Of a stretch of DNA of 40,985 bases, positions 1 through 23,833 are shown one piece after another. The notes below the pieces were generated by a model. That model was not told the origin of the DNA. It made no database searches and saw only the letters and a list, made by a program, of their open reading frames with translations. The DNA is from Chthonomonadales bacterium. GTDB lineage: Bacteria; Armatimonadota; Chthonomonadetes; Chthonomonadales; CAJBBX01. Each line of letters begins with the position of its first letter. Positions within the stretch are counted from its first letter, which is position 1. Location: the NCBI GenBank assembly GCA_027459625.1, contig DAIDHP010000036.1, positions 1-40,985 on the forward strand, given 5' to 3'. The translations under genes were made by a program, and so were the position numbers.

Positions 1-662
1 CGAACAGAGATCTCTCAAAGGGAAGGACTCGCCCATATCCGTTTCAAAGCCTGAACGGCATTATTCCTGATTCGAACTGTAGATCAATACGCCGAGGATG
101 GAGTTAAATTGGTTTCAAAGCCTGAACGGCATTATTCCTGATTCGAACCCCAGGACAGGGAAGATTTACAAATCATCGCCGAAATGTTTCAAAGCCTGAA
201 CGGCATTATTCCTGATTCGAACGCCTGGAACAAGACTGTTTACGGAGACTCTGCCGCAATGTTTCAAAGCCTGAACGGCATTATTCCTGATTCGAACTGC
301 CAAACTGCAAGTGAGGCACCTGAGGAAAAAAGGGTTTCAAAGCCTGAACGGCATTATTCCTGATTCGAACGGCGGTGGTCTCCGGCGGAGAGGCCAATAG
401 AAACTACGTTTCAAAGCCTGAACGGCATTATTCCTGATTCGAACGAAGTCTCATTGAATCAGGACGGGAGTATTACCGTCGTTTCAAAGCCTGAACGGCA
501 TTATTCCTGATTCGAACGCCCGGCCGGGAAGGCAGTGGTTGTCTACGTTGTGTTTCAAAGCCTGAACGGCATTATTCCTGATTCGAACGACTTAATCGAG
601 GTAGCAGACGCCCAGAATGAAACAAGTTTCAAAGCCTGAACGGCATTATTCCTGATTCGAAC
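1..662 (-). CRISPR. CRISPR array, 37-bp repeats, truncated at the left edge
   Basis: Nine full, identical 37-bp repeats start at 41, 112, 186, 261, 334, 408, 481, 552 and 626. The last 5 bases of another repeat lie at 1-5, so the array continues beyond the window. The nine spacers are 34-38 bp. Read on the minus strand the repeat begins GTTCGAATCAGG and ends GGCTTTGAAAC. The final eight bases, TTTGAAAC, resemble the usual ATTGAAAC 5' handle of type I/III crRNAs, so I infer minus-strand transcription, the same direction as the cas operon, with the leader at 663-832. No repeat is degenerate, which fits a recently active, leader-proximal end. No Cas6 gene is seen in the window, so the crRNA processing enzyme must be elsewhere or another nuclease must do the job. 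Confidence 0.98.
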
Positions 663-832: not shown

Positions 833-1123
833 CTAAATAATACGCGCGCCATCCCTTTCGATGTAAAAGGGTCGCCCCAGTGTGCGCACCTTATCCAAAC
901 AGCTCATACATAAAAAGTATACCCGAAAGCTGTCATTTTTGTCAACATATGTTTTTGCGCGATCCAATACGGTTTTTAATTCATTTTCGGACAAGTCGGC
1001 TTCGAATACGCTCAGTTGAAGTCTATCGCCATAGTCCAGCAGCATCTCCGCAAGTTTATGTCTCTTTTTATCATCCTCTATGTCATAGCAGATGAGGTAT
1101 CTTGCTCTGCTCTGTCCGGGCAT
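833..1123 (-). CDS. cas2: CRISPR-associated endoribonuclease/adaptation protein Cas2
   Basis: At 96 residues this has the usual Cas2 length. The N-terminus RYLICYDIEDDKKRHKLAEM shows the conserved first strand ending in an acidic turn, with Asp14 as the family metal-site residue. The mid-protein segment RLQLSVFEADLSENEL is the typical second strand (QxSVFE). Cas2 forms the dimeric core of the Cas1-Cas2 integrase that inserts prespacers at the leader end of the array. The start is supported by GGAGGA about six bases upstream of the ATG. The gene follows cas1 by 11 bp and is the last gene of the operon, directly beside the leader and array. Confidence 0.96.
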   Translation of the reverse strand: MPGQSRARYLICYDIEDDKKRHKLAEMLLDYGDRLQLSVFEADLSENELKTVLDRAKTYVDKNDSFRVYFLCMSCLDKVRTLGRPFYIERDGARII

Positions 1124-1134
1124 TTTCCATCCTC

Positions 1135-2139
1135 CTAATAAAATACATATGGCTGATAGTCGCTGTTTCCCAAAATCGTTTCTTTCATGCGAAATGCCTG
1201 ACGATTGAATAAATCTCCATATGTGGAGGGCTTTTCTTCCGCTCCGTATTCGCGATTTACAAATTTTGACTGCAGCGTCTGATGGTAGAATTCAAAAAAT
1301 CTTTTTCGCCCTTTCTCATTCAGAAAAACTCCAGCTTCACCCCGGTTGTCAAAATCATTATTCACCAGCACTCTGCGATTGATGATGCTTAAAACAAGCC
1401 GGTCTATTACAGGCTGCCTGAATTCCTCCACTAAATCCAGAGCCAGCGAAGGTCGTCCATATTCCATCTCATGAAAAAAACCAACCTGCATATCCAGCCC
1501 CTGCCCCGCGAGCGCTCCCGCCATCTCCGTGCAAAGCAGTGTGTAACCAAAACTGAGCAAAGCGTTAACAGGATCTTTCGGTGGTCTGCGTGACCTGTTT
1601 AGAAATGTGAACTCAGTTCTAACCATGCGTCCAAAGACGCTGAAGTATATCTTAGCCGCTTCTCCTTCCGCTCCCATTAGTTCCGCGATGCTTTTGCGTG
1701 CTTTCAAAGATTTTCTGCAATCGTCCATATTCTTGATAGCATCAGCTATGTTCTCGTCCGGATGATTCCTATTGTATCTCTGGAGTATGAACCGTGAATT
1801 GCGAATTTTAGCATCTACAATGGTTTCAGCTATACACATTCTAAAGTCCATATCGTCATATCGCCGGAATTGCGCCATTTTTATGAAAATATTTTTACTT
1901 TCCGCAGGCTGAAGCCTTCCGCGAAACCTTCCTCCGAAGGATAGCAAAACAGTCTCGATTCCACCATCCAAAATTGCAGCCATTGCAGGAGCGGATAGTT
2001 CCACATTTCCGTAAAGAACGATGCGTTCCAAGTCACGAAGATGAATCACATCAAGAATTGTGTCTCCTTTTACCACCTTAAGGCGTTTTCCTATAAGCCG
2101 AATGCTGGAGCCTTGCTCATGCAGATATAAGGTGATCAA
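1135..2139 (-). CDS. cas1: CRISPR integrase Cas1, TTG start
   Basis: The 334-residue protein starts with the typical Cas1 strand ITLYLHEQGSSIRLIGKRL and the repeated strand-turn pattern of the N-terminal domain (ERIVLYGNVELSAPAM). The helical C-terminal domain holds the metal site: Glu in LMGAEGEAAKIYF (about residues 155-167), His in GFFHEMEYGRPSLALDL and Glu in the following LVEEFRQPV helix. Cas1 catalyses both transesterifications of spacer integration. The start codon is TTG and overlaps the TGA stop of the upstream RT-primase gene as TTGA, with GAGGA nine bases upstream. This suggests translational coupling of Cas1 to the RT-primase. In many type III loci RT and Cas1 are fused; here they are separate but coupled. 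A YIPY-type start with ATG is not available nearby. Confidence 0.96.
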   Translation of the reverse strand: MITLYLHEQGSSIRLIGKRLKVVKGDTILDVIHLRDLERIVLYGNVELSAPAMAAILDGGIETVLLSFGGRFRGRLQPAESKNIFIKMAQFRRYDDMDFRMCIAETIVDAKIRNSRFILQRYNRNHPDENIADAIKNMDDCRKSLKARKSIAELMGAEGEAAKIYFSVFGRMVRTEFTFLNRSRRPPKDPVNALLSFGYTLLCTEMAGALAGQGLDMQVGFFHEMEYGRPSLALDLVEEFRQPVIDRLVLSIINRRVLVNNDFDNRGEAGVFLNEKGRKRFFEFYHQTLQSKFVNREYGAEEKPSTYGDLFNRQAFRMKETILGNSDYQPYVFY

Positions 2140-4805
2140 GAATTACGATCCTCACCTTCTTCATGAATGTCTTTTTCTTCGCTCATTGCGCTCTCTTCAA
2201 ACATATCGGACAGCACCTGCCGCATCATTTCCAAATCTTCATCTGACTTCTCTTCAATAGGTCTGGATAATGAGCGGGGATGATTTGATTTTCCAATAGG
2301 TTTTGGCTCACTTGCCAGTAAATCCAGAGGAGAATGGAGTTGAAAACTGCAATTGCATATTATTTCATCATTATCCTCTTCCAGCCATTCTTTAATACGT
2401 CTGCATGTAATGCAGGGGTGACTTTCATCAAGAGAGGCTAAGTATTTTTCCGAGACGGTTTCCTTGTAGTTACTGCATGCCGACAAACATTTGCGCAGGT
2501 ATGTCTTTCCTTCTTCACCCATACGCCCTAATGTGTATAAGAGAATGAGTCTTTGGATATGTCTTAGATGCCCGAGTGAAAAGGCTCTATCTGCCAGTGT
2601 TCGTATTACTCCGCAGCCATCCAGGAGTTTAAAAACGGAACCGCGGATTGCAGCGGATTCCTTTTCTAATCTTGCTGATTTTGGCTGGCTACGATCTTTC
2701 AGTTTATGGATATAAAGTTGAGCGTTTTCGGCGGAGATGCTTCTCATTTGTTTTAGCGCCCTATCTAGGCTGGGAATGAACTCTCCATCATCCGTTAGAA
2801 ATAAGCATCTCCTTCCGCTTACTGGATGTACGCCAAAGGGAAGTTTAATAGCATCGCCCAGTTCGGGTCCCGTCCATTCGGTATGCCTTGGAAATACTTC
2901 GATATGCACGCCCTTTTTCAAATCCGCCGTTAATTCCGAAAGAATCAGCCTGGCGAGACGCCTTCCTGTTTCAGCGGAAATCGGCTCCGAGAAAAACAAC
3001 CAGATGTGGTATCCTTTTTTTCCACTGTATTCAAGAGAATGAGGAATATCCAATTTTCGGCATACTTCACCGATACTTTCCGAAACCAATCCGGCTTGCT
3101 TTGTATGATCTTCCTCCATGCAATCCTTGGGATGTATGCCGGGGGCGGAATCGACATCAATGACCACCGTTCTTATTGTTCCATCAAGCCTAAGCGGATA
3201 TATGGATAGCGTCTCTTCTCCTGCAAGATGTTTCCTAAATATATCCGAGGTTATATGCCCTGAACAAGATAAGAAAGATATATTATTTCCATTATGTCCC
3301 AGATAAGCAAATACATCTTCACGTCCTGAAAAGAAGGAAAGAAATGTCTGAATATCATCATCCGATATTTTGGAGATTTCCATTACGTCTGATTCATCGT
3401 TATGAATGATCTGTTCAGTTGTAAGGATAAAAGGAGTAGAATCTTTCCGATAATAATTATGCCAGCCTCTAATAATTGCGGGGGATTGATCCGGACTAGC
3501 CATAACCAGCTTTTCATTAAGTCGAACAATAGAAGCCGGGGAAGGTTTTCTTCCCGAAGCGTCGAAACGGAAACCAAGGAAAGTAAACCCCGCATGGAGG
3601 TGCTTTATGAAAGTTTTATCTGGTTTTAAGGATAATCCCAGTTTCGATTTCAAAAATCCCTCGGTTTCCGCCAAAGCCAGTTCGGCTTCTCCTTTTGCGC
3701 CGCAAATAATAACCATATCATCGCCATATCGAATGAGATTGCACCCAATACTTATCATGTGTTTATCATATTCTGCGAGAAAGAGATTGCTGAATAAGGG
3801 TGATGTGGCAGCGCCTTGATGTATTCCTTTATTCGCTTGCTGGTTTCCGGATGAAATGCATCTGGATATTAAAGTCAGAGTGAATGGATCCAATACAAGT
3901 GAGGATAGCTTATCCAATAAAATCGCATGTGAAATCGAGTCGAAAAACGAGTCAATATCTGTTTCCGCCACCCAGTTCTGTCCACTTTTTAATAATCCTT
4001 CAATAGTTGAGAGTGCATGGTGTGCGCAGCGTCCCGGTCTGTATGCATAGGAACAATCCGGCAGCAGCGGTTCGATGAGGGGCAGCAAAGCGGCATGCAA
4101 TGCCTGCTGAACAATCCTATCCTGGATCGAGAGTATAGCTATGGTGCGGGCGCCGCCAGATCTTTTTGGTGTTGTAAACAACCGCGGCGGGAGGGGAGAA
4201 TACGTTCCTTTTATCAGCATGGATCTTAGGTTTTCCAGTCTCTTGCCGGCGTTCTCCGAATAGTCTCTGATTGACACATCATCAGGGCCTGCAGCTCCAT
4301 GATTTAGCTCCACACGATGCCAAGCTTTTAACAACGTATCCGGATTAGTGATGAATTCCTTTAGACTTTTCGGTGATGTATTTCTTAATTGATTTCTATG
4401 GGGAATCGTCGCAGATGGAGTGGTCTTAAGGTTTGGCGTTTCGCTGGTCTTAGATGGGTTTAACTGAAGCATTAAAGATGGACCCAAGCCAACTGTATCG
4501 CCGGAATGGATTTCACAGGTTTCGCGATGATGAAGCCAATGATCGTTCACACGAGTACCATTTACACTATGATCAGTTATTACGAGATGTCCTGAGGAAA
4601 AAGAGATGGTGGCATGATCTCTTGATACGGCGGGCGGATCATCAGGGTCTAAAAGCGGACTTCTGCTGCGCCCTCCCCTCCCAATAATCATAGGAAGATT
4701 TTGAATGGCAATTCGCCTGCCAGCTTCAGGGCCATTCATCACATAAAGAGCAAGAGGAGCAATTACATATGTATCGCGATTATCATTTTCATCCGCCATT
4801 AGCAT
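2136..4805 (-). CDS. FHA domain-reverse transcriptase-archaeo-eukaryotic primase fusion (RT-CAPP-like)
   Basis: The 889 residues form three modules. Residues about 20-115 are an FHA domain, with GRG at 42-44, SRDH at 61-64 and NG at 82-83, the canonical phosphothreonine-binding positions. A Thr/Pro/Ser-rich linker follows (118-145). Residues about 150-460 are a group-II-intron-like RT: ETDIDSFFDSI (motif A, Asp283), QGAATSPLFSNLFL, RYGDDMVI (Asp362-Asp363, YGDD) and a maturase-like GWHNYY. Residues about 480-700 are a primase-polymerase: VIDVD (Asp550, Asp552), YSGKKGYHIWL (His600) and KLPFGVHPVSG. After 720, a helical Cys region (C731, C773, C777, C798, C801) resembles the PriL-type Fe-S/Zn module, and the tail is acidic. 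RT-CAPP fusions next to cas1-cas2 are known (CRISPR-associated prim-pols); the FHA addition is unusual. A role in RNA- or primer-derived prespacer synthesis is inferred. The start may be ATG at 4805 or 4799; the GGAAGGGG site suits the second better. Confidence 0.93.
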   Translation of the reverse strand: MLMADENDNRDTYVIAPLALYVMNGPEAGRRIAIQNLPMIIGRGGRSRSPLLDPDDPPAVSRDHATISFSSGHLVITDHSVNGTRVNDHWLHHRETCEIHSGDTVGLGPSLMLQLNPSKTSETPNLKTTPSATIPHRNQLRNTSPKSLKEFITNPDTLLKAWHRVELNHGAAGPDDVSIRDYSENAGKRLENLRSMLIKGTYSPLPPRLFTTPKRSGGARTIAILSIQDRIVQQALHAALLPLIEPLLPDCSYAYRPGRCAHHALSTIEGLLKSGQNWVAETDIDSFFDSISHAILLDKLSSLVLDPFTLTLISRCISSGNQQANKGIHQGAATSPLFSNLFLAEYDKHMISIGCNLIRYGDDMVIICGAKGEAELALAETEGFLKSKLGLSLKPDKTFIKHLHAGFTFLGFRFDASGRKPSPASIVRLNEKLVMASPDQSPAIIRGWHNYYRKDSTPFILTTEQIIHNDESDVMEISKISDDDIQTFLSFFSGREDVFAYLGHNGNNISFLSCSGHITSDIFRKHLAGEETLSIYPLRLDGTIRTVVIDVDSAPGIHPKDCMEEDHTKQAGLVSESIGEVCRKLDIPHSLEYSGKKGYHIWLFFSEPISAETGRRLARLILSELTADLKKGVHIEVFPRHTEWTGPELGDAIKLPFGVHPVSGRRCLFLTDDGEFIPSLDRALKQMRSISAENAQLYIHKLKDRSQPKSARLEKESAAIRGSVFKLLDGCGVIRTLADRAFSLGHLRHIQRLILLYTLGRMGEEGKTYLRKCLSACSNYKETVSEKYLASLDESHPCITCRRIKEWLEEDNDEIICNCSFQLHSPLDLLASEPKPIGKSNHPRSLSRPIEEKSDEDLEMMRQVLSDMFEESAMSEEKDIHEEGEDRNS

Positions 4806-4827: not shown

Positions 4828-6057
4828 TTACCTGTGTCTGGAGGATAGCTTTACTCTTAAAAAAAGATATGCAACGATCAGAATAAGAATGAGAAATGAT
4901 CCAGATATGGCAATTGCATTGAGATGATAATTTACCCAGCTATAGGCCATACGCAGAAATGTGTTCACAATTATAAAAAAAAACAAGGTGATAAGCAGTG
5001 CGTCAATCGGATGTCCACATGAGAACCTAATACCTTTCCAGGCGCATTTGCTTACGGCATATGAAAATCGCCATATTTTGCGTATTAGCCACTTCAGAGT
5101 ATTGATTGCTATATTCGCAAATGTGAGCTTTGATCTTTGGAATGCATCAGGATGTGCCAGCGCCATTTTAAGCTGTCTGGCGGACTGAAATCTCCTTGAA
5201 GGATTGATCTCCATGGCCGCTGCAATTACGGACTCGAGCCCACCCCTGATTTCGGGACGATAAATATGCGGAGGAGCATATCTGCCTGCGATTAATGCAC
5301 GATCATTGGCGAATGGTAAATTTCCAGTGAGGCACTCATACAGAACACAGCCCAGCGAAAAAACATCGGATCGTTCATCGATAATTCCCTGGAGTGTTTC
5401 CGGCGCGTAATAACCTGGAGTTCCAACACGGCACTCCGGATTCCTTACAAGGATTCCATATACATTAAAGTCCATTAACAATGCAGCGCCGCTGCCAGTC
5501 AGCCATATATTGGAAGGTTTCACGTCTCCATGTATTACATGTTTGTTCAAGTTAAGGTAATCAAGAGCGCTGCATATCTGCCCAATGCAAGATATTGCGG
5601 AATAGAATGGCATTTGCCCGTAACGATCCAACACTGCGCGCAAGTCCGCTCCGGGATAAAGCGGCATTACAATATATGTTACGCCCAAAAGCGGGTCGGA
5701 TCCAGCATCATAGAGTGGCATTAAATTGGGATGTTGTGAAACACTTTGAATTCGAATCTCGTCCATTGCGAGCATGCCGCCATGGACTGAATCATACATT
5801 TTAACGGCAACCCAACGATGAAGCAACATATCGAATGCAGAATGTACGGATGCAAAGCCACCACAACCAATACGCTGGGCGATTCTGTATCTGCCGGCGA
5901 GGATGTCTTCCGTATTTACAAATGATTTGCCTGGTTCAGCTTCCTGCGGATTGACGGCGACGCGATGAGTTCCTCCTGTGGCGGCGTTCCCATACCACGC
6001 GGTAAGAAGATCATCGTCATCCGACATGGGGTTCATATCATCGTTCCGGAACTTCAT
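4828..6057 (-). CDS. Membrane-anchored Ser/Thr protein kinase (Hanks type) inside the CRISPR operon
   Basis: The kinase domain shows a Gly-rich loop IGCGGFASV, the VAVK lysine, an HGDVKPSN catalytic loop (HGD in place of HRD), LLMDFN (DFN in place of DFG, the metal-binding Asp kept), GTPGYYAPE and DVFSLGCVLYECLTG. The catalytic Lys, Asp and Asn are all present, so activity is likely. After a basic linker, two hydrophobic segments close the protein (near IDALLITLFFFIIVNTFL and AISGSFLILILIVAYLFL), placing the kinase domain at the cytoplasmic face of the membrane. No extracytoplasmic sensor follows. I place the start at 6057 because GGAG lies six bases upstream; an upstream ATG at 6129 adds 24 residues but lacks a good ribosome site. 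The gene lies 22 bp before the FHA-RT-primase gene, so the FHA domain is the obvious reader of its phosphorylation. Confidence 0.93.
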   Translation of the reverse strand: MKFRNDDMNPMSDDDDLLTAWYGNAATGGTHRVAVNPQEAEPGKSFVNTEDILAGRYRIAQRIGCGGFASVHSAFDMLLHRWVAVKMYDSVHGGMLAMDEIRIQSVSQHPNLMPLYDAGSDPLLGVTYIVMPLYPGADLRAVLDRYGQMPFYSAISCIGQICSALDYLNLNKHVIHGDVKPSNIWLTGSGAALLMDFNVYGILVRNPECRVGTPGYYAPETLQGIIDERSDVFSLGCVLYECLTGNLPFANDRALIAGRYAPPHIYRPEIRGGLESVIAAAMEINPSRRFQSARQLKMALAHPDAFQRSKLTFANIAINTLKWLIRKIWRFSYAVSKCAWKGIRFSCGHPIDALLITLFFFIIVNTFLRMAYSWVNYHLNAIAISGSFLILILIVAYLFLRVKLSSRHR

Positions 6058-6186
6058 GATTCGCTCCATTGCTGCGGACAAATAAAAGCCTGGATCGCTT
6101 GATTCCCAGAAACACCGCGAAAAATCCATATGCCGAAATCCATTATAAGATCATACGCGCATAAAGATGATGTAAAGGGAATTATT

Positions 6187-7341
6187 TCAGCGTTGATCTT
6201 CCAGCCATGCATTCAGCGCTGCGACAGCCGCGTTCTTCTGGCCATCCGTTATTGCGGAGGTCTCCACAATGAATTTGACCGTATAGGTTCCATTGGACTT
6301 AATGCCTTCAACACCTTTTGCGCTAAGATGGAAATGGGTGCGTGAGGATAGATCGCCATTGTATTTCCATGTGTAGCACTTTTTTACAAACCTCAACTCG
6401 TTGGTGATCTTTTCCATAAACTCCCTAATTTCCGGATGCGACTTCATATTTCCGCTATCCTCCCATTGGGGTTTCTTTTTCTGTTCTTCTGGAACATCTG
6501 CAGGCAGAACTGAATCTCGTTCCGTTTGAAAACGATCTTTGAAGGTCTCCTGAAAAATAAGTCCCACCGGAGAAAGCTCGATATAATCCACGCCATCTAT
6601 TTTACTTCGCTCTATGAAGGATTCCACTCTATCATCCCCTTCCAATATCTCCTTATAATCCGCAGCCTTCACCATATCGGCGGTTCTCGAGAGATCGTAA
6701 AGCATGCCCGTGGTGCGCATCCATAGCTCGTAATCCAAAGCGATTGGCATGGGGGGAAATTCAATCACTTCATTGAATCGCTCATGTTTGTAGTATACCG
6801 GCACGTTGATCGCCTGACCTATAATCGTGGCGATTGCCACCTGAGCTTTGTACCCTCCTGTGGCGTTGATGCCGCATTTCTGATATTTGTTGTCAAGGAT
6901 AATCTTGCACATTTGCTTTGCCAGATTTCTCAGTCCGGTGGTTCTAAACAATTTAGGTTTTTCATCCTGAAGACCATCTATCTGAACAGCTTTTGCGCGT
7001 TCACCGTAATAACTGCAAAGCGTCGTGGCGATATTCCTGCCATTATCCGTATCGGAATGCAGGAAAAAAAGTTTCGTTTCTGAATTGATAATCTCTTTTT
7101 CGCTCAGTCCATAAAGTGAATTTATCTCCGCCCCGCAGATTCTATCCTTCCCATCAATCTGACGCAAAGCTGTACCCAGCGCATTCCAGTCGGACTGATT
7201 GTACGGTTCAGCGAGCGAAAGGTACATTCCAGATAGATCCTTATCGTTATTCGCAGCGTTTACATCCAACCCTTTTTTAAGATTTTCCATGTTTGGGAAA
7301 AACATGCTCGTGCCTACGGTGCATATCATTAGTTTAAGCAT
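6187..7341 (-). CDS. CARF-domain protein (APE2256-like), possible RelE-like C-terminus
   Basis: The N-terminus MLKLMICTVGTSMFF is a CARF first strand-loop and NATGGYKAQVAIATIIGQ (about 160-177) is the second conserved ligand-binding loop, as in the APE2256/ring-nuclease clade that binds cyclic tetra-adenylate. A middle segment near YIELSPVGLIFQETF looks like a winged helix. The last ~90 residues (KKCYTWKYNGDLSSRTHFHL onward) are short and strand-rich. By analogy with Cami1, a CARF-RelE effector that cuts ribosome-bound mRNA, this could be a RelE-fold ribonuclease, but catalytic residues are not certain. The alternative is a ring nuclease that degrades the signal. An upstream in-frame start at 7389 exists; 7341 is preferred for its AGGAGG six bases ahead and because it puts the CARF strand at the N-terminus. 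Confidence 0.85.
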   Translation of the reverse strand: MLKLMICTVGTSMFFPNMENLKKGLDVNAANNDKDLSGMYLSLAEPYNQSDWNALGTALRQIDGKDRICGAEINSLYGLSEKEIINSETKLFFLHSDTDNGRNIATTLCSYYGERAKAVQIDGLQDEKPKLFRTTGLRNLAKQMCKIILDNKYQKCGINATGGYKAQVAIATIIGQAINVPVYYKHERFNEVIEFPPMPIALDYELWMRTTGMLYDLSRTADMVKAADYKEILEGDDRVESFIERSKIDGVDYIELSPVGLIFQETFKDRFQTERDSVLPADVPEEQKKKPQWEDSGNMKSHPEIREFMEKITNELRFVKKCYTWKYNGDLSSRTHFHLSAKGVEGIKSNGTYTVKFIVETSAITDGQKNAAVAALNAWLEDQR

Positions 7342-7385
7342 CAAATGCCTCCTGGATGGCGGATAATAACGTTCGAGTGATACGG

Positions 7386-9716
7386 TCATTTTTTATATTC
7401 GTATATCTTAAATGGTTCCTTATCATCCCATATAAATGTAAATCTTATGTTTTTAGCGCTTTTCAAAGATATTTTGCCAATGTAATCCACGCTGTCCTGC
7501 GTGAGTTCGCCGGATATTTCATTCTCTATCCATTGCCTCACCGTTTTGCAATTGGAGATTGAGGATGCCTGTTTTTTTGCATAGTTCACGTCATCAAGGT
7601 CTTTTCGCAGATTCTCATCCTCCTGCAGGGTGATACGATAGCTCCAGATATCGTCAGAGAAGTCATCATCCGGCAGAATAACGATGCTTTTCACCGCAGC
7701 GTGTTTTAGGAAATGCACCTCTTGCCCGGATCGTATTATAAACTCATCAAATTCTCTTGCCATCTCCAGCCAAAGCTGAGCGGAAAGAATCTCTTCGGGT
7801 TTAAACGAAACGGCGCCAAGCTTACCAGCGTAGTTCAATGCGCATATTTTTCCGAAATATCGGCGAGTATACCAAAAATTATCCCAATATTCTTTATCCA
7901 ACCCAGTTGGAATATCTTTTGTATGCTGATCCAACCATATGTTTAGTTGATCCATAAAAGTAGCAGCTATCCATTTATCAACCTGCATATCGCGTTTCGG
8001 TAAATTTTTTATGCATCCGGCGCTGTTAAACAGATACACTTGCTCACGCAATCGGATTTTGAATGTTTTGGCATCATATTCCAATTGTTTGCCGGATATC
8101 CGCCACTGTGTCTCCGCGCCCACCCGATTAAGTTGATTATCGCATCCATCTATCAATCGCATCAGCACCACAAGTTTGGGAAAATCCACATCCGAAAGCT
8201 TACATGAATACTTTAGCGGGGCGGGATATGTTTCACATAGGTAAGGGCATGTTATAGAGTCAACCTTGTTCCAACCTGTGGACTTCCTGTGATAGATACA
8301 CAGATGCTCAATTGCCCGGGAAATATCTTTACCACCTTCCCAATTAATTTGCGATTTAAGTTTCTCATTGGTCAGTCTGTGATATGCCAGAAAATGGTGC
8401 AGATTGCGAATTTCACTGCGAAACAAGGGTATATGGGCTCCGGTGTCTTCAATGCATTTCCCATTTAAATCCTCTTTGAGATAAAGACGATCCAAGGTGT
8501 GTCCGCAATCATGCAGGATAATTGCGCCGAAGAGAATGATGCGCTCGTTGTCTGTTAAGCTATCCGAAATGGGTGTGAGGAATTGCTGCGCCAGACGCAT
8601 GAGATCATAGTGGTGATCGGCTGAATGGTTTGCCGCCATGGGTAGCTTATCCCCCTGCCAGATCATCGGGCCAATGGTGGAGGAAAGATGTGATAAGACA
8701 TCCCTCCAATAATCGTTGATTATGAACTGTTTTAATATTTTTTCCGCATAGTGTTGAAAGTGGTTTTTGTTTCGACTTTCCCGAAACCCATCCTCCAAAA
8801 TGCGACTGATGGATTTGTCAAATGAGTTACCGATTTTATCATTTGCGACGGATCGCATCCGCAGACTTAATGCGCGTTCATATATTTCAGCCCATTTTTT
8901 ACTCGATTTTTTCCCGAGCACCGTGGCATCGAGGAGCACTTCCTCCTGCAGCCAGGCATCGTTATCCGCACCCACGGGATAATCCGGGATTTCCACGATG
9001 TTGGGGGTGGATTCATGCAGATAATGAATCCGGGTATCCTCATTTCGCATAAGCTGGGATACCAATGTGGATGTAACGATAGCTCCTTTGAACCCCCCGG
9101 TAGGATTAGTAATCACTGTAGATTTACGAGATTGCATTAAATCCCTCAAAGTCGCAATAAGATTTGGCATTCCATTGCTGGTGAAGGTATCGCCAATGAC
9201 TTTCAGCCCGGGAATAATAATGAGCCCCTCATCACGCTCCGGCACGGAAAGTGAGGTACCCTCAAAGGTGTGCGTTGGTGACGTTTTGGCAAGTGGGAGT
9301 GGCGAATACGCTCCTAGATAGCAATTCGATTTGCGTATTGATTTAATAGAATCCCGCATAATCCGAGCGCATCGATAACCATCAAGAGTGTCTGATGATA
9401 TGAATACAAATTCACATGGAAAATATTCCGGATAATTTTGGGACATTATAGACATACATGTGATTTCCACCGGAAGGACGTTCCCTGGATTTACAAAGCC
9501 TTGCCTTACCAGATTTTTTTTGATCATATCCCGAGCGAGAAGCTTTTTGAAATTCTTCGAGATGATTTTATAGTCATTCGAATTCATTGAATCATTCAGG
9601 TCGCTTATACGCTTATCTGAGCCTGCCTCCTTTCTTGCATTTCCTATGAGAGACGTTCCGACGGTTAAAATCAACAGTGTCTTCTGATCTTGCCCCTGCG
9701 TTTCATGTTGGCTCAT
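7386..9716 (-). CDS. CARF-HD domain fusion, type III signalling effector
   Basis: Residues 12-250 form a CARF domain with ILTVGTSLIG (15-24), VFISSDTLDG (104-113), NPTGGFKGAIVTSTLVSQL (204-222) and IHYLHEST, the same clade as the neighbouring CARF protein. Residues about 360-560 are an HD phosphohydrolase domain. Visible are HSADHHYDLMRLA (His364 or His368), ILHDCGHTL (His402-Asp403), CIYHRK (His476) and RLIDGCD (Asp523), giving a full metal-binding set. The remaining ~200 residues are unassigned. CARF-HD proteins are listed among predicted cyclic-oligoadenylate effectors; the HD domain could cut nucleic acid or hydrolyse nucleotides, including the signal itself. The gene starts 5 bp after csx15 stops, with GAGGTG as ribosome site, and its end is close to the next CARF gene. 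Confidence 0.88.
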   Translation of the reverse strand: MSQHETQGQDQKTLLILTVGTSLIGNARKEAGSDKRISDLNDSMNSNDYKIISKNFKKLLARDMIKKNLVRQGFVNPGNVLPVEITCMSIMSQNYPEYFPCEFVFISSDTLDGYRCARIMRDSIKSIRKSNCYLGAYSPLPLAKTSPTHTFEGTSLSVPERDEGLIIIPGLKVIGDTFTSNGMPNLIATLRDLMQSRKSTVITNPTGGFKGAIVTSTLVSQLMRNEDTRIHYLHESTPNIVEIPDYPVGADNDAWLQEEVLLDATVLGKKSSKKWAEIYERALSLRMRSVANDKIGNSFDKSISRILEDGFRESRNKNHFQHYAEKILKQFIINDYWRDVLSHLSSTIGPMIWQGDKLPMAANHSADHHYDLMRLAQQFLTPISDSLTDNERIILFGAIILHDCGHTLDRLYLKEDLNGKCIEDTGAHIPLFRSEIRNLHHFLAYHRLTNEKLKSQINWEGGKDISRAIEHLCIYHRKSTGWNKVDSITCPYLCETYPAPLKYSCKLSDVDFPKLVVLMRLIDGCDNQLNRVGAETQWRISGKQLEYDAKTFKIRLREQVYLFNSAGCIKNLPKRDMQVDKWIAATFMDQLNIWLDQHTKDIPTGLDKEYWDNFWYTRRYFGKICALNYAGKLGAVSFKPEEILSAQLWLEMAREFDEFIIRSGQEVHFLKHAAVKSIVILPDDDFSDDIWSYRITLQEDENLRKDLDDVNYAKKQASSISNCKTVRQWIENEISGELTQDSVDYIGKISLKSAKNIRFTFIWDDKEPFKIYEYKK

Positions 9717-9720
9717 CTAT

Positions 9721-10110
9721 TCACCTCGTTCGCCTCGCACTCTCACGAATTTCATTTAGGTTCAGTATCTCCGCCAGATCAAATACGGGGGGTGTCGCTC
9801 CTTCGCGCGGTTTCAGGCGTATGACAGTGGGAAAATGGCCAATGCGGCCATGCAGGTTAGCTAACATCAAAGCGGAAATCACATTTAAGGATGGAAGGTT
9901 TATCAAAAACCGTTCCGTCTGCCATTGATTCCCGCTGATAGGAACGCTATCCAAAAGTGCGTTCACCTGCTCCGCAAATGGCGCCTGGTGGTCAAACTGA
10001 GCCGTGGACTGGTGTGCGATTTCGATATCGCACCCGAGGCTCTCCCGGATTTGATATAGCTGCTCCTCGGTAAAAGGATGAGCGAAGTTGATAATCCTTA
10101 CGGAATTCAT
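9721..10110 (-). CDS. csx15: CRISPR-associated protein Csx15
   Basis: This small protein of 129 residues starts MNSVRIINFAHPFTEEQLYQ, the characteristic Csx15 N-terminus (NFxHPxTxxQ), followed by a predicted Rossmann-like alternation ending in SALMLANLHGRIGHFPTVIR. Csx15 is a type III accessory protein grouped with Csx16 and Csx20 as small CARF-related proteins thought to bind or degrade cyclic oligoadenylate. Its place between the RAMP genes and the two CARF effectors fits a signal-damping role. The start at 10110 has a perfect GGAGGA six bases upstream; the longer frame from 10125 would overlap the RAMP gene and lacks such a site. Confidence 0.8.
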   Translation of the reverse strand: MNSVRIINFAHPFTEEQLYQIRESLGCDIEIAHQSTAQFDHQAPFAEQVNALLDSVPISGNQWQTERFLINLPSLNVISALMLANLHGRIGHFPTVIRLKPREGATPPVFDLAEILNLNEIRESARRTR

Positions 10111-10121
10111 GATTTCCTCCT

Positions 10122-12431
10122 TCATTTAGTAGGATCATATGGGAGCTTGGGATTTGGATCTGTGAGCTTTGGCAAGGATAATTGTTTCGACTTATTTTTA
10201 TCATTGTGTGTGAACCATTCAAAGATATCCATGGTGCGATCACAAGACAGCCTGGGGTAGTGCACCTCATTGTGAGGAAACCCCTTGCTCGACTTCAGAA
10301 ACGCATTCAGGATATCACTTCCTTTAACCTGATTATTTTTATTACCATTGTTGGGTAACCAAAGGAATTGCTGGAACTGATCAACAAAGGCGTTCTTAAT
10401 ATCCTCAGCGGAGTTAGCGGTTTGCAAAACGGCGTTTAAGTCGCTGTAATATGCTGTCATTTGTATCGTGTCGGCGATGATGGAATTGCTATCATCCATT
10501 TCGAGCCTCACGCTGCCGAATCCAAGCGGTTTGCCTCCTCCCAGTTTATGAAAATGCTCATCGGGCATCTTCAGCAGCCAGATCAGCGCACCTAGTTCAA
10601 ACTTGGAAAGGTTGCTGAAATAAATATCAAACTTAAATACGGAGCCGTGATTCACCCAGCCTTTTATGGAACGATTTTGATCCGTTCTCTCCTTATCCCC
10701 TGGCGGCTGTCTGTAAAAGCATGTATTATTATTATTATTCGAATTCCAATATTCCTTATCGTACCATTGATGCGGGTAAACCTTTCGCCCGCGTATTTGC
10801 TTGCCGTTTTTATACGCCGCGACATCCCTTGAGATTTTGGATTTTTGCGGATCGCCATTGGCGTCTCCAAGATAGAATCTGCTCTGAGCGTGCTTGGGAG
10901 CAGCAAGATTGGCAAGCGGAAATCCTGCAGGATCAAAACCATTTTGCTCAAACTGAACACACTTGACATTCCCAATGCGCAGATTTCCCTTATAGGCGTT
11001 TTTCGCTTTATGGTCCTTAATATTGGCGTTCACCCAGCCAAACACCCTGTCTGCGGGGGAGAGTTGGTCGTAACAGGTGGCGGGGAGATGATTCCTCTGC
11101 TGCGATTTCTCTATGACCTCCAATGGTGTGTTTGGGCTTACATGGCGGGATATCTGTACGGGATAAAGATTTTTCAAACAAAATTTATGTTTAGCTGCAT
11201 TCCATTTTACTTCTGCATAACATAGTACACCATCCGTTAGTTTCATTCCCGCAAAGTGTTTGGACCACTCGCATGCACTGCATTTACTAGTTAATACGGA
11301 AGGACCTGAGGGTGGTGATTGTTTAACAAATTCCTCGTTTTCCCTATAATTCTTGATTAGTACATCCCATTTTCCCATTGCTCCACCAAGGGGGAGAGTA
11401 AGGCTGCCTATAAGTGTTTGTTCTATACTAGAATCATGAAAAAAAATCCGTTCATAATGCTTGTTTTCAGCATTCGGCCCTGATTCGAAAAAATAACCTT
11501 CATGCCAACCCGTGCCTGTGTGGGGGGATGTACTTAAATTATCTACATTAAAAAAATCGTAATTTAAATGGTTTAGTATTGTGATTTGAATCCAAACCTT
11601 ATCTCCATGGCTCAGAGTAGGTATGCCTGGGATTACATTCTTTGTATGCGGATCATATATGTTATAAAATGCAGCATACATCAGATTATTGTTTGGCTTA
11701 CCATTCCTTTGAATTGTTGATTTACCGGGTAACAGCCGCACTCTTAACCCCCCCCCCACCCCGTTTTCAATCCTCGCCGGCACAAGCTTTATTGCATCAT
11801 TAGTGGCGCCTCTGAAGCCCGTAACATCCTTGTAATCGTTGAACACTCCCATTCGTGAGTTGGTGATCGCCTCATAAGCGGAGCGCAGCATGCCCTTCAC
11901 GCCGGTAGGGGCGATGTATGGTTTGCCGTCCACCATTCTCAGGGGATATGTATAATGATCTTTTGGACTTTCAGTTTTGTGCTGCGCATCCGGCAATAGC
12001 AGGGGGGTTTCGACCGTCATCGTCACCCGCAGCCTGCCATGATACTTACCCTGAACATATATACCATGCGGCGGCGGGGGGGAATCCCCTATAATTTGAT
12101 CATCTGTCTTTCTTGGAGGCATTGGAATGAAATAATAGGGGTTGTAGAAGTAACCAGGCGGGGTATTGCCGGCTGCAGGGATATTAGCGGATTCAAGGGT
12201 ATTTCCGGGTGCAGGGATATGCGGTGGTATTTTTTCCCCTTGTGCATCTTGATCACTGAATAAATGAAGTATCAGCCCTTTATCATTCCATTCACATTTA
12301 TATTCACCCGCCACAAGATTTCCTGCGATAACAGTATTTATTTCTACTTCTTTCGGTTTATTTTGTTTTTCATTAAAATAGGATATGTATGGTATTCCAT
12401 TCCGTCTTGTTAGAGTAACATCTCTAATCAT
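10122..12431 (-). CDS. RAMP (Cas7-like) protein of the TIGR03986 type
   Basis: The 769-residue protein has a RAMP body. YHGRLRVTMTVETPLLLPD is the first strand (about 125-145), DGKPYIAPTGVKGMLRSAYE the conserved Pro-Gly-Lys-Gly turn, and LGGGKPLGFGSVRL the C-terminal Gly-rich loop. A CxxC pair (CSACEW) in the middle may bind zinc. The first ~110 residues are an added N-terminal domain. It should be a backbone subunit of the type III effector that binds crRNA and target RNA, comparable to the large insertion-bearing Cas7 of III-D complexes. The gene overlaps csx19 by 8 bp. It carries a run of ten C/G at 11748-11757, within the GVGGGLRV segment, which could slip. Ribosome site GGAGGTG precedes the ATG. 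Confidence 0.85.
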   Translation of the reverse strand: MIRDVTLTRRNGIPYISYFNEKQNKPKEVEINTVIAGNLVAGEYKCEWNDKGLILHLFSDQDAQGEKIPPHIPAPGNTLESANIPAAGNTPPGYFYNPYYFIPMPPRKTDDQIIGDSPPPPHGIYVQGKYHGRLRVTMTVETPLLLPDAQHKTESPKDHYTYPLRMVDGKPYIAPTGVKGMLRSAYEAITNSRMGVFNDYKDVTGFRGATNDAIKLVPARIENGVGGGLRVRLLPGKSTIQRNGKPNNNLMYAAFYNIYDPHTKNVIPGIPTLSHGDKVWIQITILNHLNYDFFNVDNLSTSPHTGTGWHEGYFFESGPNAENKHYERIFFHDSSIEQTLIGSLTLPLGGAMGKWDVLIKNYRENEEFVKQSPPSGPSVLTSKCSACEWSKHFAGMKLTDGVLCYAEVKWNAAKHKFCLKNLYPVQISRHVSPNTPLEVIEKSQQRNHLPATCYDQLSPADRVFGWVNANIKDHKAKNAYKGNLRIGNVKCVQFEQNGFDPAGFPLANLAAPKHAQSRFYLGDANGDPQKSKISRDVAAYKNGKQIRGRKVYPHQWYDKEYWNSNNNNNTCFYRQPPGDKERTDQNRSIKGWVNHGSVFKFDIYFSNLSKFELGALIWLLKMPDEHFHKLGGGKPLGFGSVRLEMDDSNSIIADTIQMTAYYSDLNAVLQTANSAEDIKNAFVDQFQQFLWLPNNGNKNNQVKGSDILNAFLKSSKGFPHNEVHYPRLSCDRTMDIFEWFTHNDKNKSKQLSLPKLTDPNPKLPYDPTK

Positions 12432-12966
12432 CTCTTTTCACCTCCAAACTTATAAGCCTTTCATCGAATACTGCGAAATTGCCACAGGGATAATCATTCG
12501 AGAAGTATTCACGCGTATTGAGCTGCACATACCGATTTGCTTGCACTTCGAAGGGAAGAGGAATCGTTCCAATCCGCGCCGAGGATACTCCGCCCCAACC
12601 ATTGGTGAATACCCCCGCCCCCTTTCCCCATAGCATGTAGTGATTTTCATCTGTTTCCACCGTATATTTATTCTTATCCCATTCGCCTTCCAGAATTTCT
12701 TCTTCGGCCTCTGTCAATACGGCGATTCGGGAATCCTCAAGCCATCTCAATTCCCAGTTCTTCGTGAAGACACGCGCCTCGTAGACATCGGTGATGGTGC
12801 AGTCATCTGTATGATTAACAAGCTTACCCGCCTTTAATTCTGCGAGAACGCATTCGGTTCGGCCGTAGAGCAGGGCGTAGCCATTCTGAGAAGTATTCTT
12901 CATTTTGGATAATGCTTCACTAAGCGTCATTATATCTTTGCTTATATAACAGATCAGGCTGCACAT
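12424..12966 (-). CDS. csx19: Type III-D accessory protein Csx19
   Basis: A 180-residue protein matching the Csx19 pattern: an N-terminal helix (TLSEALSKMKN), GYALLYGRTECVLAELKAGK near residue 30-50, then ARVFTKNWELRWLED and MLWGKGAG further on. Csx19 is a marker of subtype III-D and in the III-Dv complex is a structural subunit near the Cas10 end. The ATG at 12966 has GAAGGAG upstream and overlaps the preceding RAMP gene by 13 bp; a second ATG at 12930 lacks a ribosome site. Its presence is the main reason for calling this locus III-D rather than III-A or III-B. Confidence 0.8.
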   Translation of the reverse strand: MCSLICYISKDIMTLSEALSKMKNTSQNGYALLYGRTECVLAELKAGKLVNHTDDCTITDVYEARVFTKNWELRWLEDSRIAVLTEAEEEILEGEWDKNKYTVETDENHYMLWGKGAGVFTNGWGGVSSARIGTIPLPFEVQANRYVQLNTREYFSNDYPCGNFAVFDERLISLEVKRDD

Positions 12967-14561
12967 GTTTTTTCTCCTTCCCTCTTCAGCGCTTCTAATG
13001 CTTCATTCCATGCGCTTTTCAGTGCGACCATATCCATTTTCGTGAAAATCACCCCATTTTTGATCTCACAGTCCAGCCCGCCGCCCGTTATCTTGATATT
13101 GGTGACACTTATATCCCCCATGCCTCTGTTCACGGCGAATCCAAGCGGGATATCCCCTCTGGAAAAATCACGAAGCGTAAAAAGCAGGAGCGCATGGCAC
13201 GCTGCAATCGGATTCAGGTTGGCGTTTGATTGCGCATTCGCCGGGTGGCTATTATCCGAGTTGTTTGCAATGGAATCCGCGCAGGACGCCATCGCTTTCC
13301 TCAAACGGCTTGTATCCACCACAATCCTAATCGGTTCCCATTCAGCCAGGTGTGGCTCCAAAACTTGGTAGAGCGCGCTCTTGTTCACCGCATTCGTCCA
13401 TCTGTCTATGGCGGTGTGATACGCTTCCTGAAAACGTGGCTTGCACCTCTTATCAACAACATTATTCAGAGCCTCCTCGTCCGTGGCGTTGGCAACTTCA
13501 ACCCATTCACTTGAAGGGATTTTCTCCACGCCATAACAATCCGCGAAGCTGGCTGATCCTGAACCGGGTTTTATTTTGTACACCCGCACTGATAACGAAA
13601 GATGATTTTCAGGATCATGGGAGGATGAGCTATTCTCGGTTTCCGCGGCCGCCCCAAACAGCAGATCAGCCAATGGCGTTTTCACTTGATCAAGAAAATC
13701 AATGGGGATAGCGTCATCCCCAAGCATTGTGCGCACGATCTTCTCCGCTCTCGTACGCATAGCCCCCTTTATGGATGATCCAGGCAACAATAGGGCAAGC
13801 TCCCCCTTTTCATTCGTCGGCTCCAGCAGCGGAATGGAATCAACGACTATGCCATCATACCCGGCACGCACCATCATGGGTCCTGCCGGATTCCAATTAA
13901 TATTAATTATTACGCTTCGCGAGATATCCGTTTGGTCAACCGGAACATCCACTCCGGCTTTATCGCTTAGAAAAGCGATCATACCCTCCCTGGTTCCAAT
14001 ATCGAACTTTTTCAGGGATGCCTCTTTTCCTTGTGCAATTTTCACTTCGCCCAAGCCGCGCGTTTTGCATGCGCCAAACCGTATCAAACCATGCATTAAG
14101 CCATTCGCCAAATGCTTCAGCATTGATTCGCAACCGCTGCAATCCCCTCCCTCCGCAATATCCACCGTTATTCCAATGGTGAAGCGCGATCCCCGCGGAA
14201 GGACCGTCATATCATATTTGGCCTGGTACGCGGCCGTACCTGTAACGCGGTTAATGCCAACTCCATCGCGTATCTGCATAGATGAGCCGGATGGGAGGGT
14301 GATTATTGCATCCTCCATGCACACCGAAGAGGCGGATCCTGTATCCCCCTCACTCCCCCAGAACGACGTATCCATGCTTTCCCTCGCAAGCCATGCCTTT
14401 ATCGCTCCCACCAGACTGGTGCCGGGTATATACGGTTTCCCATTTCCATTCAAAGCCACCGTCATATCCTCGAATCCGGATTCCAGTCCGCCCACATGGA
14501 TAGCGGTCTGCGCTTCCAATCTCGCTTTCAAGACATATCTACAGCTAAGCTTCCTTGGCAT
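12954..14561 (-). CDS. Double Csm3/Cas7-like RAMP protein
   Basis: Two Csm3-type RAMP domains lie in tandem within 535 residues. The first has AQTAIHVGGLESGFEDMTV, KPYIPGTSLVGAIKAWL and a Gly-rich loop GACKTRGLGEVKI. The second has MVRAGYDGIVVDSIPLL, ALLLPGSSIKGAMRTRAEKI and GFAVNRGMGDISV. Each has an Asp where Csm3 keeps its target-RNA-cutting residue (FEDMTV and VVDSIP), so two cleavage sites at about 6-nt spacing are expected, as in the Cas7-2x subunit of III-Dv. I prefer the ATG at 14561, with AGGTGA upstream, over a TTG start at 14603 that lies deep in the csx10-like gene. It overlaps csx10 by 17 bp and csx19 by 13 bp. Confidence 0.88.
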   Translation of the reverse strand: MPRKLSCRYVLKARLEAQTAIHVGGLESGFEDMTVALNGNGKPYIPGTSLVGAIKAWLARESMDTSFWGSEGDTGSASSVCMEDAIITLPSGSSMQIRDGVGINRVTGTAAYQAKYDMTVLPRGSRFTIGITVDIAEGGDCSGCESMLKHLANGLMHGLIRFGACKTRGLGEVKIAQGKEASLKKFDIGTREGMIAFLSDKAGVDVPVDQTDISRSVIININWNPAGPMMVRAGYDGIVVDSIPLLEPTNEKGELALLLPGSSIKGAMRTRAEKIVRTMLGDDAIPIDFLDQVKTPLADLLFGAAAETENSSSSHDPENHLSLSVRVYKIKPGSGSASFADCYGVEKIPSSEWVEVANATDEEALNNVVDKRCKPRFQEAYHTAIDRWTNAVNKSALYQVLEPHLAEWEPIRIVVDTSRLRKAMASCADSIANNSDNSHPANAQSNANLNPIAACHALLLFTLRDFSRGDIPLGFAVNRGMGDISVTNIKITGGGLDCEIKNGVIFTKMDMVALKSAWNEALEALKREGEKTCAA

Positions 14562-16954: not shown

Positions 16955-18412
16955 CTATCTTCCCATCAATTGGGACAGTTCCATCGCATCGATCAACTGT
17001 GAGACATTATTTTCCCCGTCACAGGTGAATAGGTTATCTCCGATGACATCCTTCAGCCCCTCGCACTTATCCTTCGATAGTTTGTAGCTAGCCTCCGCAA
17101 CAACTGAGCCAGCGAACATATATTCGCGAAGAGCATGCGTCTGGTTACTTGGCACTTTATATTTCCCATCTGAGTTCCTGCTATTAAGGTCCTTTGCGAA
17201 AGACTTCAATTTCTCCAAGGAATGAGCTTTGCCCCATTTATCAGTTTGTTCTTCAATTAGATAAGGGCCTCCATACAGGCGATCGGTGCCGATGGTTAGT
17301 TCGCGCCTTATACTTTCGAGGCTGGTCGGGGAGCTGTCATATACGACATGAAAATCCAACGCGGAGACACTCTTATTTTCGTATTTGGTTTTCACCTTTT
17401 TGGCTGATACCACCAATCCCTCCGCGATGTCGTAGGCGACTGAAAATGGATAATGAGGCTTCACCACTGCGATCCCTGCGCATGCCGTGGCGCCGCAGGG
17501 AAGTATGGATTTTATAACCTCGTTGCTCTTTGTATTATCCTGAAACGCTTTCAGGTATGATTCCGTGAAGGTTACGGCATTCTTGCCAAGACATAACAGA
17601 GTCAGATCATCCCCGCCGAAAATCAAAGGAATAGCTCTTACCTGATGATCATTCTCCTTGATCTTCATCAAAGCTTCCTTGCAAGCGTCACGCGCGCAAG
17701 TATCCAATGACTCGGAGAAGGCCTTTAGTTTCTTGATATAATCTTCATCATTTGTAGATTTAGCGTAATCTTCGAAGTTCATAAATATCTGGCCCATCCC
17801 ATTGCCATCGGCATGGACAACAGCAAGCCATTCCCCCTGCTTTGTCAAGTCCTCGATATCCTTTGGAAATTTCAGCGAGGGGAATATTTCCTCCAATCGG
17901 TCATATGCGCAATTTGCGGCATTTCGTTTAAAAAAACTGACTTTCGAAAGTCTGCGAGTATCATCACCCACTTTTATTTCCTGATAGGCGGGAAGACCAC
18001 TGGATGAACAGATGTCAAGGATGGGAATCTGTTGGAATCTATAATGCACTCCGGGAATTTCAGAACGAATGGATGCTATTTTCCGGTGAACTTGAGGTAT
18101 CGCTTTGTGAATAGAACCCTCTTCGTATTCGACATAAGCCCCGGTGATATCCAGACCAGGAGCTTCCTTGAGCGCCTTCAGGGTGATGCTCCCGATGAAG
18201 GCTTTGGCTGCATCCTCACACTCCGTGCGCAAATAGGCTTTGCCCGAAGAAGCAAGCAACAATACAACTTTGGGATATTTCGACACCTCCGTTTCAACCC
18301 ACTCCTTACAACTGATGAGTGTCAAATAGGATGCTCCCACGTTCTCCCTCAGACGGTTTGTTGCAAAGATATAGCCTTGGTTGCCGGAGGTTTCCATCAA
18401 TATCAAAAACAT
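16955..18412 (-). CDS. cas10: Cas10 large subunit, compact, GGDD present, no HD domain
   Basis: At 485 residues this is much shorter than typical Cas10 (about 700-900). It begins MFLILMETSGNQGYIFATNR directly with the first palm region, so the N-terminal HD nuclease is absent. The cyclase palm carries WLAVVHADGNGMGQIF (Asp202) and IPLIFGGDDLTLLCL (GGDD at 266-269), the residues that make cyclic oligoadenylates from ATP. Downstream, ATACAGIAVVKPHYPFSVAYDIAEGLV is the usual Cas10/Cmr2 helix region after the palm. It is the first gene of the operon, with GAGAGGA upstream of the ATG and a 152-bp gap to the preceding nucleoside hydrolase gene. Without HD, defence must depend on RNA cleavage and CARF signalling. 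Confidence 0.93.
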   Translation of the reverse strand: MFLILMETSGNQGYIFATNRLRENVGASYLTLISCKEWVETEVSKYPKVVLLLASSGKAYLRTECEDAAKAFIGSITLKALKEAPGLDITGAYVEYEEGSIHKAIPQVHRKIASIRSEIPGVHYRFQQIPILDICSSSGLPAYQEIKVGDDTRRLSKVSFFKRNAANCAYDRLEEIFPSLKFPKDIEDLTKQGEWLAVVHADGNGMGQIFMNFEDYAKSTNDEDYIKKLKAFSESLDTCARDACKEALMKIKENDHQVRAIPLIFGGDDLTLLCLGKNAVTFTESYLKAFQDNTKSNEVIKSILPCGATACAGIAVVKPHYPFSVAYDIAEGLVVSAKKVKTKYENKSVSALDFHVVYDSSPTSLESIRRELTIGTDRLYGGPYLIEEQTDKWGKAHSLEKLKSFAKDLNSRNSDGKYKVPSNQTHALREYMFAGSVVAEASYKLSKDKCEGLKDVIGDNLFTCDGENNVSQLIDAMELSQLMGR

Positions 18413-23283: not shown

Positions 23284-23538
23284 GATCTCTCCTTTCGAAA
23301 CACGGACGCCGTCACGCATGTCGAATGGCTTTGAAGCAACAAAGTGTGTTTTAAAAGCGTCTTGGATAATAGTTTAGTCCATATATCCCCTTTTTTCACC
23401 ATGTGAAGTGACGAACGTAACGCGCTGAAAGCTGTATTTGTTGTGAGAATTGGGATTCGAAACAGGATGGATTAATGGAAATGTAAGTCCATATAACACG
23501 TACGATTTTGTTGGACAACACAGATTTCCCACGCCTGC

Positions 23539-23638
23539 GCGAAAGTGTATCCGAGCAGCGAACGCAGTGAGCGCGGGTAACCCCCGCCGTCAACGCCAAT
23601 GCGAAAGTGTATCCGAGCCGCGAACGCAGTGAGCGGGT
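23539..23638. repeat. Two direct copies of a ~38-bp dispersed repeat
   Basis: Copies at 23539-23577 and 23601-23638 both read GCGAAAGTGTATCCGAGC and then GCGAACGCAGTGAGCG, differing at a few positions, and start 62 bp apart. The core GAACGCAGTGAGCG also occurs inverted at 26227-26254 (near identical) and 23834-23867 (diverged). The family is therefore spread over 2.7 kb of gene-poor DNA and is probably a genome-wide intergenic repeat. Confidence 0.8.
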
Positions 23639-23833
23639 GTCCCCCCGTTAAAGCACCCCGCCCGCACGAAAGTGAACTTCCGCGTTGAAGAAAACGAAAT
23701 CCCCCAAGGGGATTTCCCAACCCTCCATGGTTTTGTCAGCGCAAACCGGAGATTTATCTCCGGGTATGGGTGTTCACGGCATACCCGACACCTCAGCACC
23801 CGACCCATGGGGCATGTCGGGTAAACATATCAT

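Follow-up and report, generated by a model that had tools for sequence, protein, structure and literature searches.

The 40,985-nucleotide stretch analysed here (the window), a contig of a Chthonomonadales bacterium, carries a CRISPR operon on its minus strand, with genes in the order cas10, Cas7-Cas5, Cas7, csx19, Cas7, csx15, CARF-HD, CARF, Ser/Thr kinase, FHA-RT-Prim-Pol, cas1, cas2, followed by the repeat array. PADLOC and NCBIfam models indicate subtype III-D. Our subject is the gene at 2136..4805 (minus strand, stop codon included), which begins with ATG and encodes an 889-residue protein joining an FHA domain, a reverse transcriptase (RT), a primase-polymerase (Prim-Pol) and a Cys-rich C-terminal domain (CTD). 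Its 3′ end shares 4 bases with cas1, and its start lies 22 bases past the kinase gene. RT-Prim-Pol fusions are the published CART-CAPP type, described in 2021 and 2023 (PMC8211822; PMC10415136), so the gene could not be taken for a new RT-primase fusion. What is new here, within a known class of enzyme, is the regulatory part: the FHA domain and the kinase partner. We suggest that the kinase acts through the FHA domain to control the synthesis of prespacers.

The domain order was proposed in an initial annotation made from the letters alone, and Pfam bears it out, with NCBIfam, an AlphaFold2 (AF2) model and VIA-align supporting the enzymatic domains. The FHA domain spans residues 21-112 (4470..4745, minus), and its Pfam match at residues 41-108 scores 40.6 bits against a gathering threshold of 20.7. 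The group II-like RT covers residues 149-455 (3441..4361, minus), with an RVT_1 match at 213-414 (107.2 bits, gathering 29.6) and the predicted YGDD box at 360-363. The AEP/Prim-Pol domain, residues 484-695 (2721..3356, minus), matches Pfam AEP-TOTE over the same residues at 109 bits (gathering 27), and the protein as a whole scores 227.4 bits against NCBIfam NF040561, "CRISPR-associated primase-polymerase type A1", where the cut-off is 200. The Prim-Pol motifs begin at 548 (VIDVD), 594 (SGKKGYH) and 636 (EVFPR), which places Asp550, Asp552 and His600 where the initial annotation had put them and adds E636. In an alignment with Marinitoga CAPP, the D-x-D, H and E residues fall in register with the metal residues and are all intact. 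The CTD occupies residues 723-832 (2310..2639, minus).

Absence of an AEP fold in a predicted structure had been named beforehand as grounds for abandoning the reading; the fold is present, and the Prim-Pol core superposes on Marinitoga CAPP (7nqd_B) with Z 26.7, 213 aligned residues and rmsd 2.4. The RT likewise matches the GsI-IIC RT (7k9y_A; Z 33.1, 340 aligned, rmsd 3.5) and the RT of the Caloramator CART-CAPP (8bgj_B; Z 20.7, 190 aligned, rmsd 1.9). Loss of the catalytic residues in homologues was also looked for. Asp550 and His600 are conserved in 6/6 RT-Prim-Pols, and position 552 is Asp in five and Glu in one (L136). The AF2 model, built from an 18-row alignment, is confident for the RT, the Prim-Pol and the C-terminal helices. 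The FHA region was not confidently modelled (pLDDT about 22-44), the alignment rows having no coverage there, and its assignment therefore rests on Pfam matches in all three FHA-type homologues.

The kinase gene at 4828..6129 (minus), which the initial annotation did not mention, is the most telling neighbour of the fusion. Its product matches Pfam Pkinase at 114.5 bits (gathering 31.7) and keeps the catalytic residues K110, D202 and D220, as do all four kinases of its family. Residues 369-431 (4837..5025) form a hydrophobic tail, probably two transmembrane segments by Kyte-Doolittle scan. Such a tail occurs in all three intact kinases and likely anchors the protein in the membrane.

A search of 291 genomes of the same phylum found the kinase family in 4 (E <= 1e-50): the window genome (G000), G007, G019 and G021. 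In each it lies directly upstream of an RT-Prim-Pol gene. For the count of RT-Prim-Pols in these genomes we used a four-row alignment as query, because NF040561 matched 225 of the 291, mostly through short alignments with its initial part, with three over the cut-off. RT-Prim-Pols were found in five genomes, the four above (the copy in G007 being broken) and G208. That all four kinase genomes fall among the five RT-Prim-Pol genomes has a hypergeometric P of 1.7e-8, uncorrected for kinship; the four belong to four families (f1, f7, f8 and f9). The four linked kinases score 225-1007 bits, and the next-best kinase in the five RT-Prim-Pol genomes scores 113.

An FHA domain is also present in the RT-Prim-Pols of G019 (locus L039) and G021 (L040), with Pfam scores of 50.2 and 31.7 bits. 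The order kinase, FHA-RT-Prim-Pol, cas1 holds in all three FHA-type loci. L040 lies in a one-contig genome, and there the order continues through cas2 and a seven-copy array to cas10 and other III-D genes; the L039 contig stops within cas1. In a tree of RT domains, from which duplicates and domains under 200 residues (and thus the broken G007 RT) were left out, the three FHA proteins form one clade with support 100/97 that spans families f1, f8 and f9. The broken locus in G007 (L038, 661-3735) encodes, in a single reading frame interrupted by two TGA codons, a kinase domain, hydrophobic segments, a partial RT, a Prim-Pol and a CTD, followed by cas1 and cas2. We treat this contig as damaged because its cas1 also appears frame-shifted. 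A candidate FHA-RT relative on a virus contig (L051) was rejected, as the locus reads as an RT without FHA. A search of six genomes recovered two RT-Prim-Pols that had been identified before, and 132 genomes of another phylum gave no match, a negative that carries no weight.

Conservation within the three FHA-type proteins points to a probable phosphopeptide reader. FHA domains hold phospho-Thr through GR, S-x2-H and NG residues. These are kept in all three proteins; in the window protein they are G42 R43, S61 R62, H64 and N82 G83 T84, within motifs that start at 42 (GRGGR), 61 (SRDHA) and 82 (NGT). The other two FHA domains are 40 and 54% identical to that of the window protein, near the 43-58% of the enzymatic and C-terminal domains and far above the 10-22% of the linkers. 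Together with the restriction of the kinase family to RT-Prim-Pol loci among the genomes searched, these observations favour phosphorylation control. Although the tails are poorly conserved for the most part, all three loci share two short motifs in them: D-x-R-x-T before the FHA domain (residues 8-12 of the window protein, 4770..4784, minus), a candidate phosphorylation site, and T-A-W before the kinase domain. No T-A-W was seen in the FHA-less L038. With three sequences to hand, we take both motifs as leads.

The catalytic part of the fusion is well supported by homology, and the protein has the features by which CART-CAPPs are recognised: an N-terminal group II-like RT with YxDD, a CAPP_A Prim-Pol, a CTD with conserved Cys, and a cas1/cas2 operon in a type III locus. 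In published CART-CAPPs the RT domain does both the priming and the extension, on RNA as well as on DNA (PMC10415136), and by likeness the RT of the fusion may do the same. The initial annotation had divided the labour differently, giving RNA-templated synthesis to the RT and priming to the Prim-Pol. Primer-free synthesis on RNA does occur in relatives, through the RT. The isolated Prim-Pol domain of the Caloramator CART-CAPP is inactive, and an RT mutant of the Geobacillus lituanicus enzyme is inactive as well, from which its authors deduce a second inactive Prim-Pol and suppose the condition to be common (PMC10415136). The proposed division is therefore uncertain or even reversed. Primase-polymerase activity is found in CAPPs without an RT, from Marinitoga and Dysgonamonadaceae, and an association with Cas1-Cas2 is described for CAPPs (PMC8211822). 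With its metal residues intact, the Prim-Pol of the fusion could be active, which is not assured.

We think it probable, on this comparative evidence, that the fusion is a CART-CAPP that copies RNA or single-stranded DNA into DNA prespacers for the Cas1-Cas2 of a III-D system and is controlled by a dedicated Ser/Thr kinase acting through FHA. The kinase, with a cytoplasmic catalytic domain and a C-terminal membrane anchor, would phosphorylate a Thr, which could lie in the kinase, in the FHA protein's N-terminal tail or in one of the Cas proteins. By binding this phospho-Thr, FHA would then either recruit the RT-Prim-Pol to the membrane-bound kinase or switch the enzyme's conformation, as other FHA switches do. 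The RT would prime and copy invader RNA or single-stranded DNA, a step demonstrated in relatives. The Prim-Pol and Cys-rich domains may assist second-strand synthesis or keep hold of the primer-template, bearing in mind the two relatives in which Prim-Pol activity was lacking, and Cas1-Cas2 of the same operon would integrate the product. A bolder and more tentative extension, which may well be wrong, is a membrane-anchored, phosphorylation-gated prespacer factory. Here the kinase would detect infection at the membrane, and docking through FHA would turn on the copying of RNA into DNA where the invader comes in, so that signalling licenses the formation of CRISPR memory. On this view, relatives would reach the same coupling through membrane segments fused to the RT-Prim-Pol itself.

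Several observations weigh against phosphorylation control of prespacer synthesis. The case is built from sequence, with no more than three intact FHA-type loci to draw on. The RT-Prim-Pol of G208 (L041, 493-3075) has strongly hydrophobic, probably membrane-spanning N-terminal segments in place of FHA; cas1 follows, and the 450 bases upstream on this short contig contain no kinase, so control by a kinase is not general. In all four kinases HGD and DFN/DLN replace HRD and DFG; the window kinase has DFN. These motifs vary within the kinase superfamily and the departure is not excluding, yet the protein could be a weak or pseudo-kinase. The kinase could also serve interference or cell-suicide signalling in place of adaptation. 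Finally, the 19 complete spacers gave no match among 50,697 phage records.

If the FHA domain were a structural or oligomerising addition that does not read phosphorylation, the protein would be an ordinary CART-CAPP and the kinase a bystander or a general regulator. Tested CART-CAPP relatives do work without FHA (PMC10415136). A sample of 392 genomes from a different phylum, to which locus L006 (a Phycisphaerae metagenome-assembled genome) belongs, yielded two further RT-Prim-Pols (L135 and L136), neither of which gave an FHA match, and the scarcity of FHA-type loci fits this explanation too. We nevertheless consider it unlikely, as it leaves the retention of every phospho-Thr-binding residue in three of three FHA proteins and the tie between kinase and RT-Prim-Pol in all four kinase-bearing genomes to be accounted for. 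Alternatively, kinase and fusion could together serve as an effector of defence or as an abortive module, working by phosphorylation or by cDNA synthesis like defence-associated RTs (DRTs) and phage-triggered kinases, and not in spacer acquisition. The kinase gene has two CARF genes on one side and the adaptation genes on the other, a position compatible with such a role, the best PADLOC models for the window kinase are PD-T4-6 kinases, and the RT has sub-threshold DRT matches: NCBIfam Drt2, Drt3a and Drt4 score 61.0, 66.8 and 34.8 bits against cut-offs of 390, 200 and 450. The CAPP model, in contrast, is over its cut-off, and cas1 comes directly after the RT-Prim-Pol in the three FHA loci, in L041 and in L038, which makes a purely defensive module improbable.

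The kinase might also be mainly a membrane anchor, its catalysis doing no more than create a docking site by which FHA holds the prespacer factory at the inner membrane, the entry point of phage nucleic acid. The hydrophobic kinase tail fits, as do the hydrophobic segments fused to the RT-Prim-Pol in L041 and separating kinase from RT within one frame in L038, and T-A-W accompanies FHA in all three loci and is missing from the FHA-less L038. Tail and juxtamembrane sequence are poorly conserved, however (18-27% identity), the argument draws on hydropathy alone, and the L038 contig is broken; we give this possibility a slim chance. Phosphorylation control by the dedicated kinase remains our preferred reading, and the interpretation offered by the initial annotation is partly supported as a whole. 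The preferred reading touches on the open question of when cells acquire spacers and how self-acquisition is avoided. With a kinase exclusive to prespacer synthases that are FHA-tagged or otherwise linked to the membrane, phospho-signalling would feed directly, and testably, into CRISPR adaptation, and such a system could find use in an inducible reverse-transcriptase recorder.

The CTD was first described as having five cysteines (731, 773, 777, 798 and 801) that suggest an Fe-S or zinc site as in primase large subunits. That set was rejected as a metal site. C731, C777 and C801 are invariant in the four closest proteins, as are C817 and C819; 773 and 798 are not conserved, and 777 is lost in two proteins from virus contigs. 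When the comparison is widened to ten C-terminal domains, including three from AEP proteins of virus contigs, C731, C801, C817 and C819 alone are invariant, which fits a four-Cys metal site. The same domain follows Prim-Pol in those virus-contig proteins (L186:4836-7961, E 1.4e-10; L191:4971-7754; L194:4911-7778), the first of which also has an MCM-like helicase domain, and they are a possible source of the Prim-Pol-CTD pair of CRISPR loci. In two loci beside cas1-cas2, L047 (1537-3006, minus) and L048, an RT is fused directly to the Cys-rich CTD with no Prim-Pol between, and each has a second RT-CTD gene upstream in the opposite direction (L047:5082-6338, plus). The CTD may accordingly serve the RT or Cas1 and not only the Prim-Pol.

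The resemblance of the CTD to the primase large subunit (PriL) is suggestive, plausible and unproven. In the window protein H-L-R-H-x2-R and then P-x2-C occur, with cysteines, in the same order and register as in PriL/PRIM2. The CTD profile aligned with human PRIM2 by hhalign at a score of 20.5 and a probability of only 4%, little above the best of 100 shuffles (18.45) and above the best of 67 control segments (16.81). C801 and C819 pair with PRIM2 cysteines in this alignment; C731 lies outside the aligned range. The window CTD gave no match to Pfam PriL (PF04104), and one of ten related domains matched at E 0.36. PriL is absent from the 50 PDB entries listed for the fusion model, lists that RT and AEP entries fill and that cannot exclude it. 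A profile search for a solved relative of the CTD found none (best E 0.14, an MCM fragment), and from one virus-contig CTD it returned only zinc-finger fragments (E 0.079 and 1.7). Folded alone from one sequence, the CTD had low confidence (pLDDT 44.7).

The remaining genes of the operon, all on the minus strand, flank the fusion and the kinase. Downstream of the fusion lie cas1 (1135..2139), cas2 (833..1123) and the array (41..662), whose nine copies of a 37-base repeat reach the contig end; genome-wide the repeat has 23 copies across three contigs. Upstream of the kinase are a CARF protein (Cas_APE2256; CARF7/DUF2103-like) at 6187..7389 and a CARF-HD protein at 7386..9716. The latter fuses CARF to an HD (HD-CE) domain, and the adjoining pair are likely two cyclic-oligonucleotide sensors in one locus. 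Then come csx15 (9721..10125), a III-D Cas7-like RAMP (TIGR03986; 10122..12431), the III-D csx19 (12424..12966), a second III-D Cas7-like RAMP (12954..14603), the Cas7-Cas5 III-D protein (14545..16944) and the III-D cas10 (16955..18412). Elsewhere in the window, a DNA methylase gene is followed by an EcoO109I-type restriction endonuclease gene (27867-29079), with a 30-base direct repeat just upstream (27759-27853) and a gene for a 551-residue protein without any Pfam match beside the pair (29555-31210). Dispersed direct and inverted repeats occur around GCGAACGCAGTGAGCG (23531-23646 and 26228-26254).

Among known systems, the fusion is most readily compared with the second type of CAPP_A, the CART-CAPPs (or RT-CAPPs) of Caloramator australicus (CCJ33120) and Geobacillus lituanicus, which share RT-Prim-Pol-CTD near type III cas1/cas2 and the RT and Prim-Pol folds. 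The window protein differs in its FHA domain, its kinase partner and its length (889 versus 713 residues). The Marinitoga CAPP (TPR-Prim-Pol-CTD; 7nqd, 7nqe, 7p9j) shares the Prim-Pol core and a C-terminal domain reported to have conserved Cys (PMC8211822), with TPR where the window protein has FHA-RT. The initial annotation had called for a search of RT-CAPP families for an N-terminal FHA; the RT-Prim-Pol part proved to be of CART-CAPP type, and the words FHA and kinase are absent from the main texts of PMC8211822 and PMC10415136, as they are from PMC6013744, PMC5513706 and PMC5541045. A wider literature search, with bioRxiv preprints and most subscription journals outside its scope, showed, among the papers listed, no FHA with a CRISPR RT or Prim-Pol and no CRISPR-adaptation kinase. 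PMC10910872 mentions kinases and vWA genes together near CRISPR loci and counts AEP and Prim-Pol among the genes linked to adaptation, a setting different from the FHA-kinase/RT-Prim-Pol pairing. Among plasmids, the best 20 of at least 5000 matches to the full-length fusion were RT matches, and none of those 5000 records reached 80% cover.

Parallels for the proposed control come from outside CRISPR. FHA switches of the OdhI/GarA type have an N-terminal Thr next to the FHA domain. The N-terminal Thr of the window protein is similarly placed and would be compatible with intramolecular switching, although the OdhI model itself is far below its cut-off (18.1 bits of 200). The PpkA-Fha switch of Agrobacterium type VI secretion serves a different machine, and the fusion scores 36.1 bits against TIGR03354 (TagH, the type VI secretion Fha), below the cut-off of 120.25. 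The likeness is one of working principle: there, a Ser/Thr kinase and an FHA protein that reads phospho-Thr together turn a machine on (PMC3953482), and the kinase and the FHA-tagged RT-Prim-Pol may work in a comparable way.

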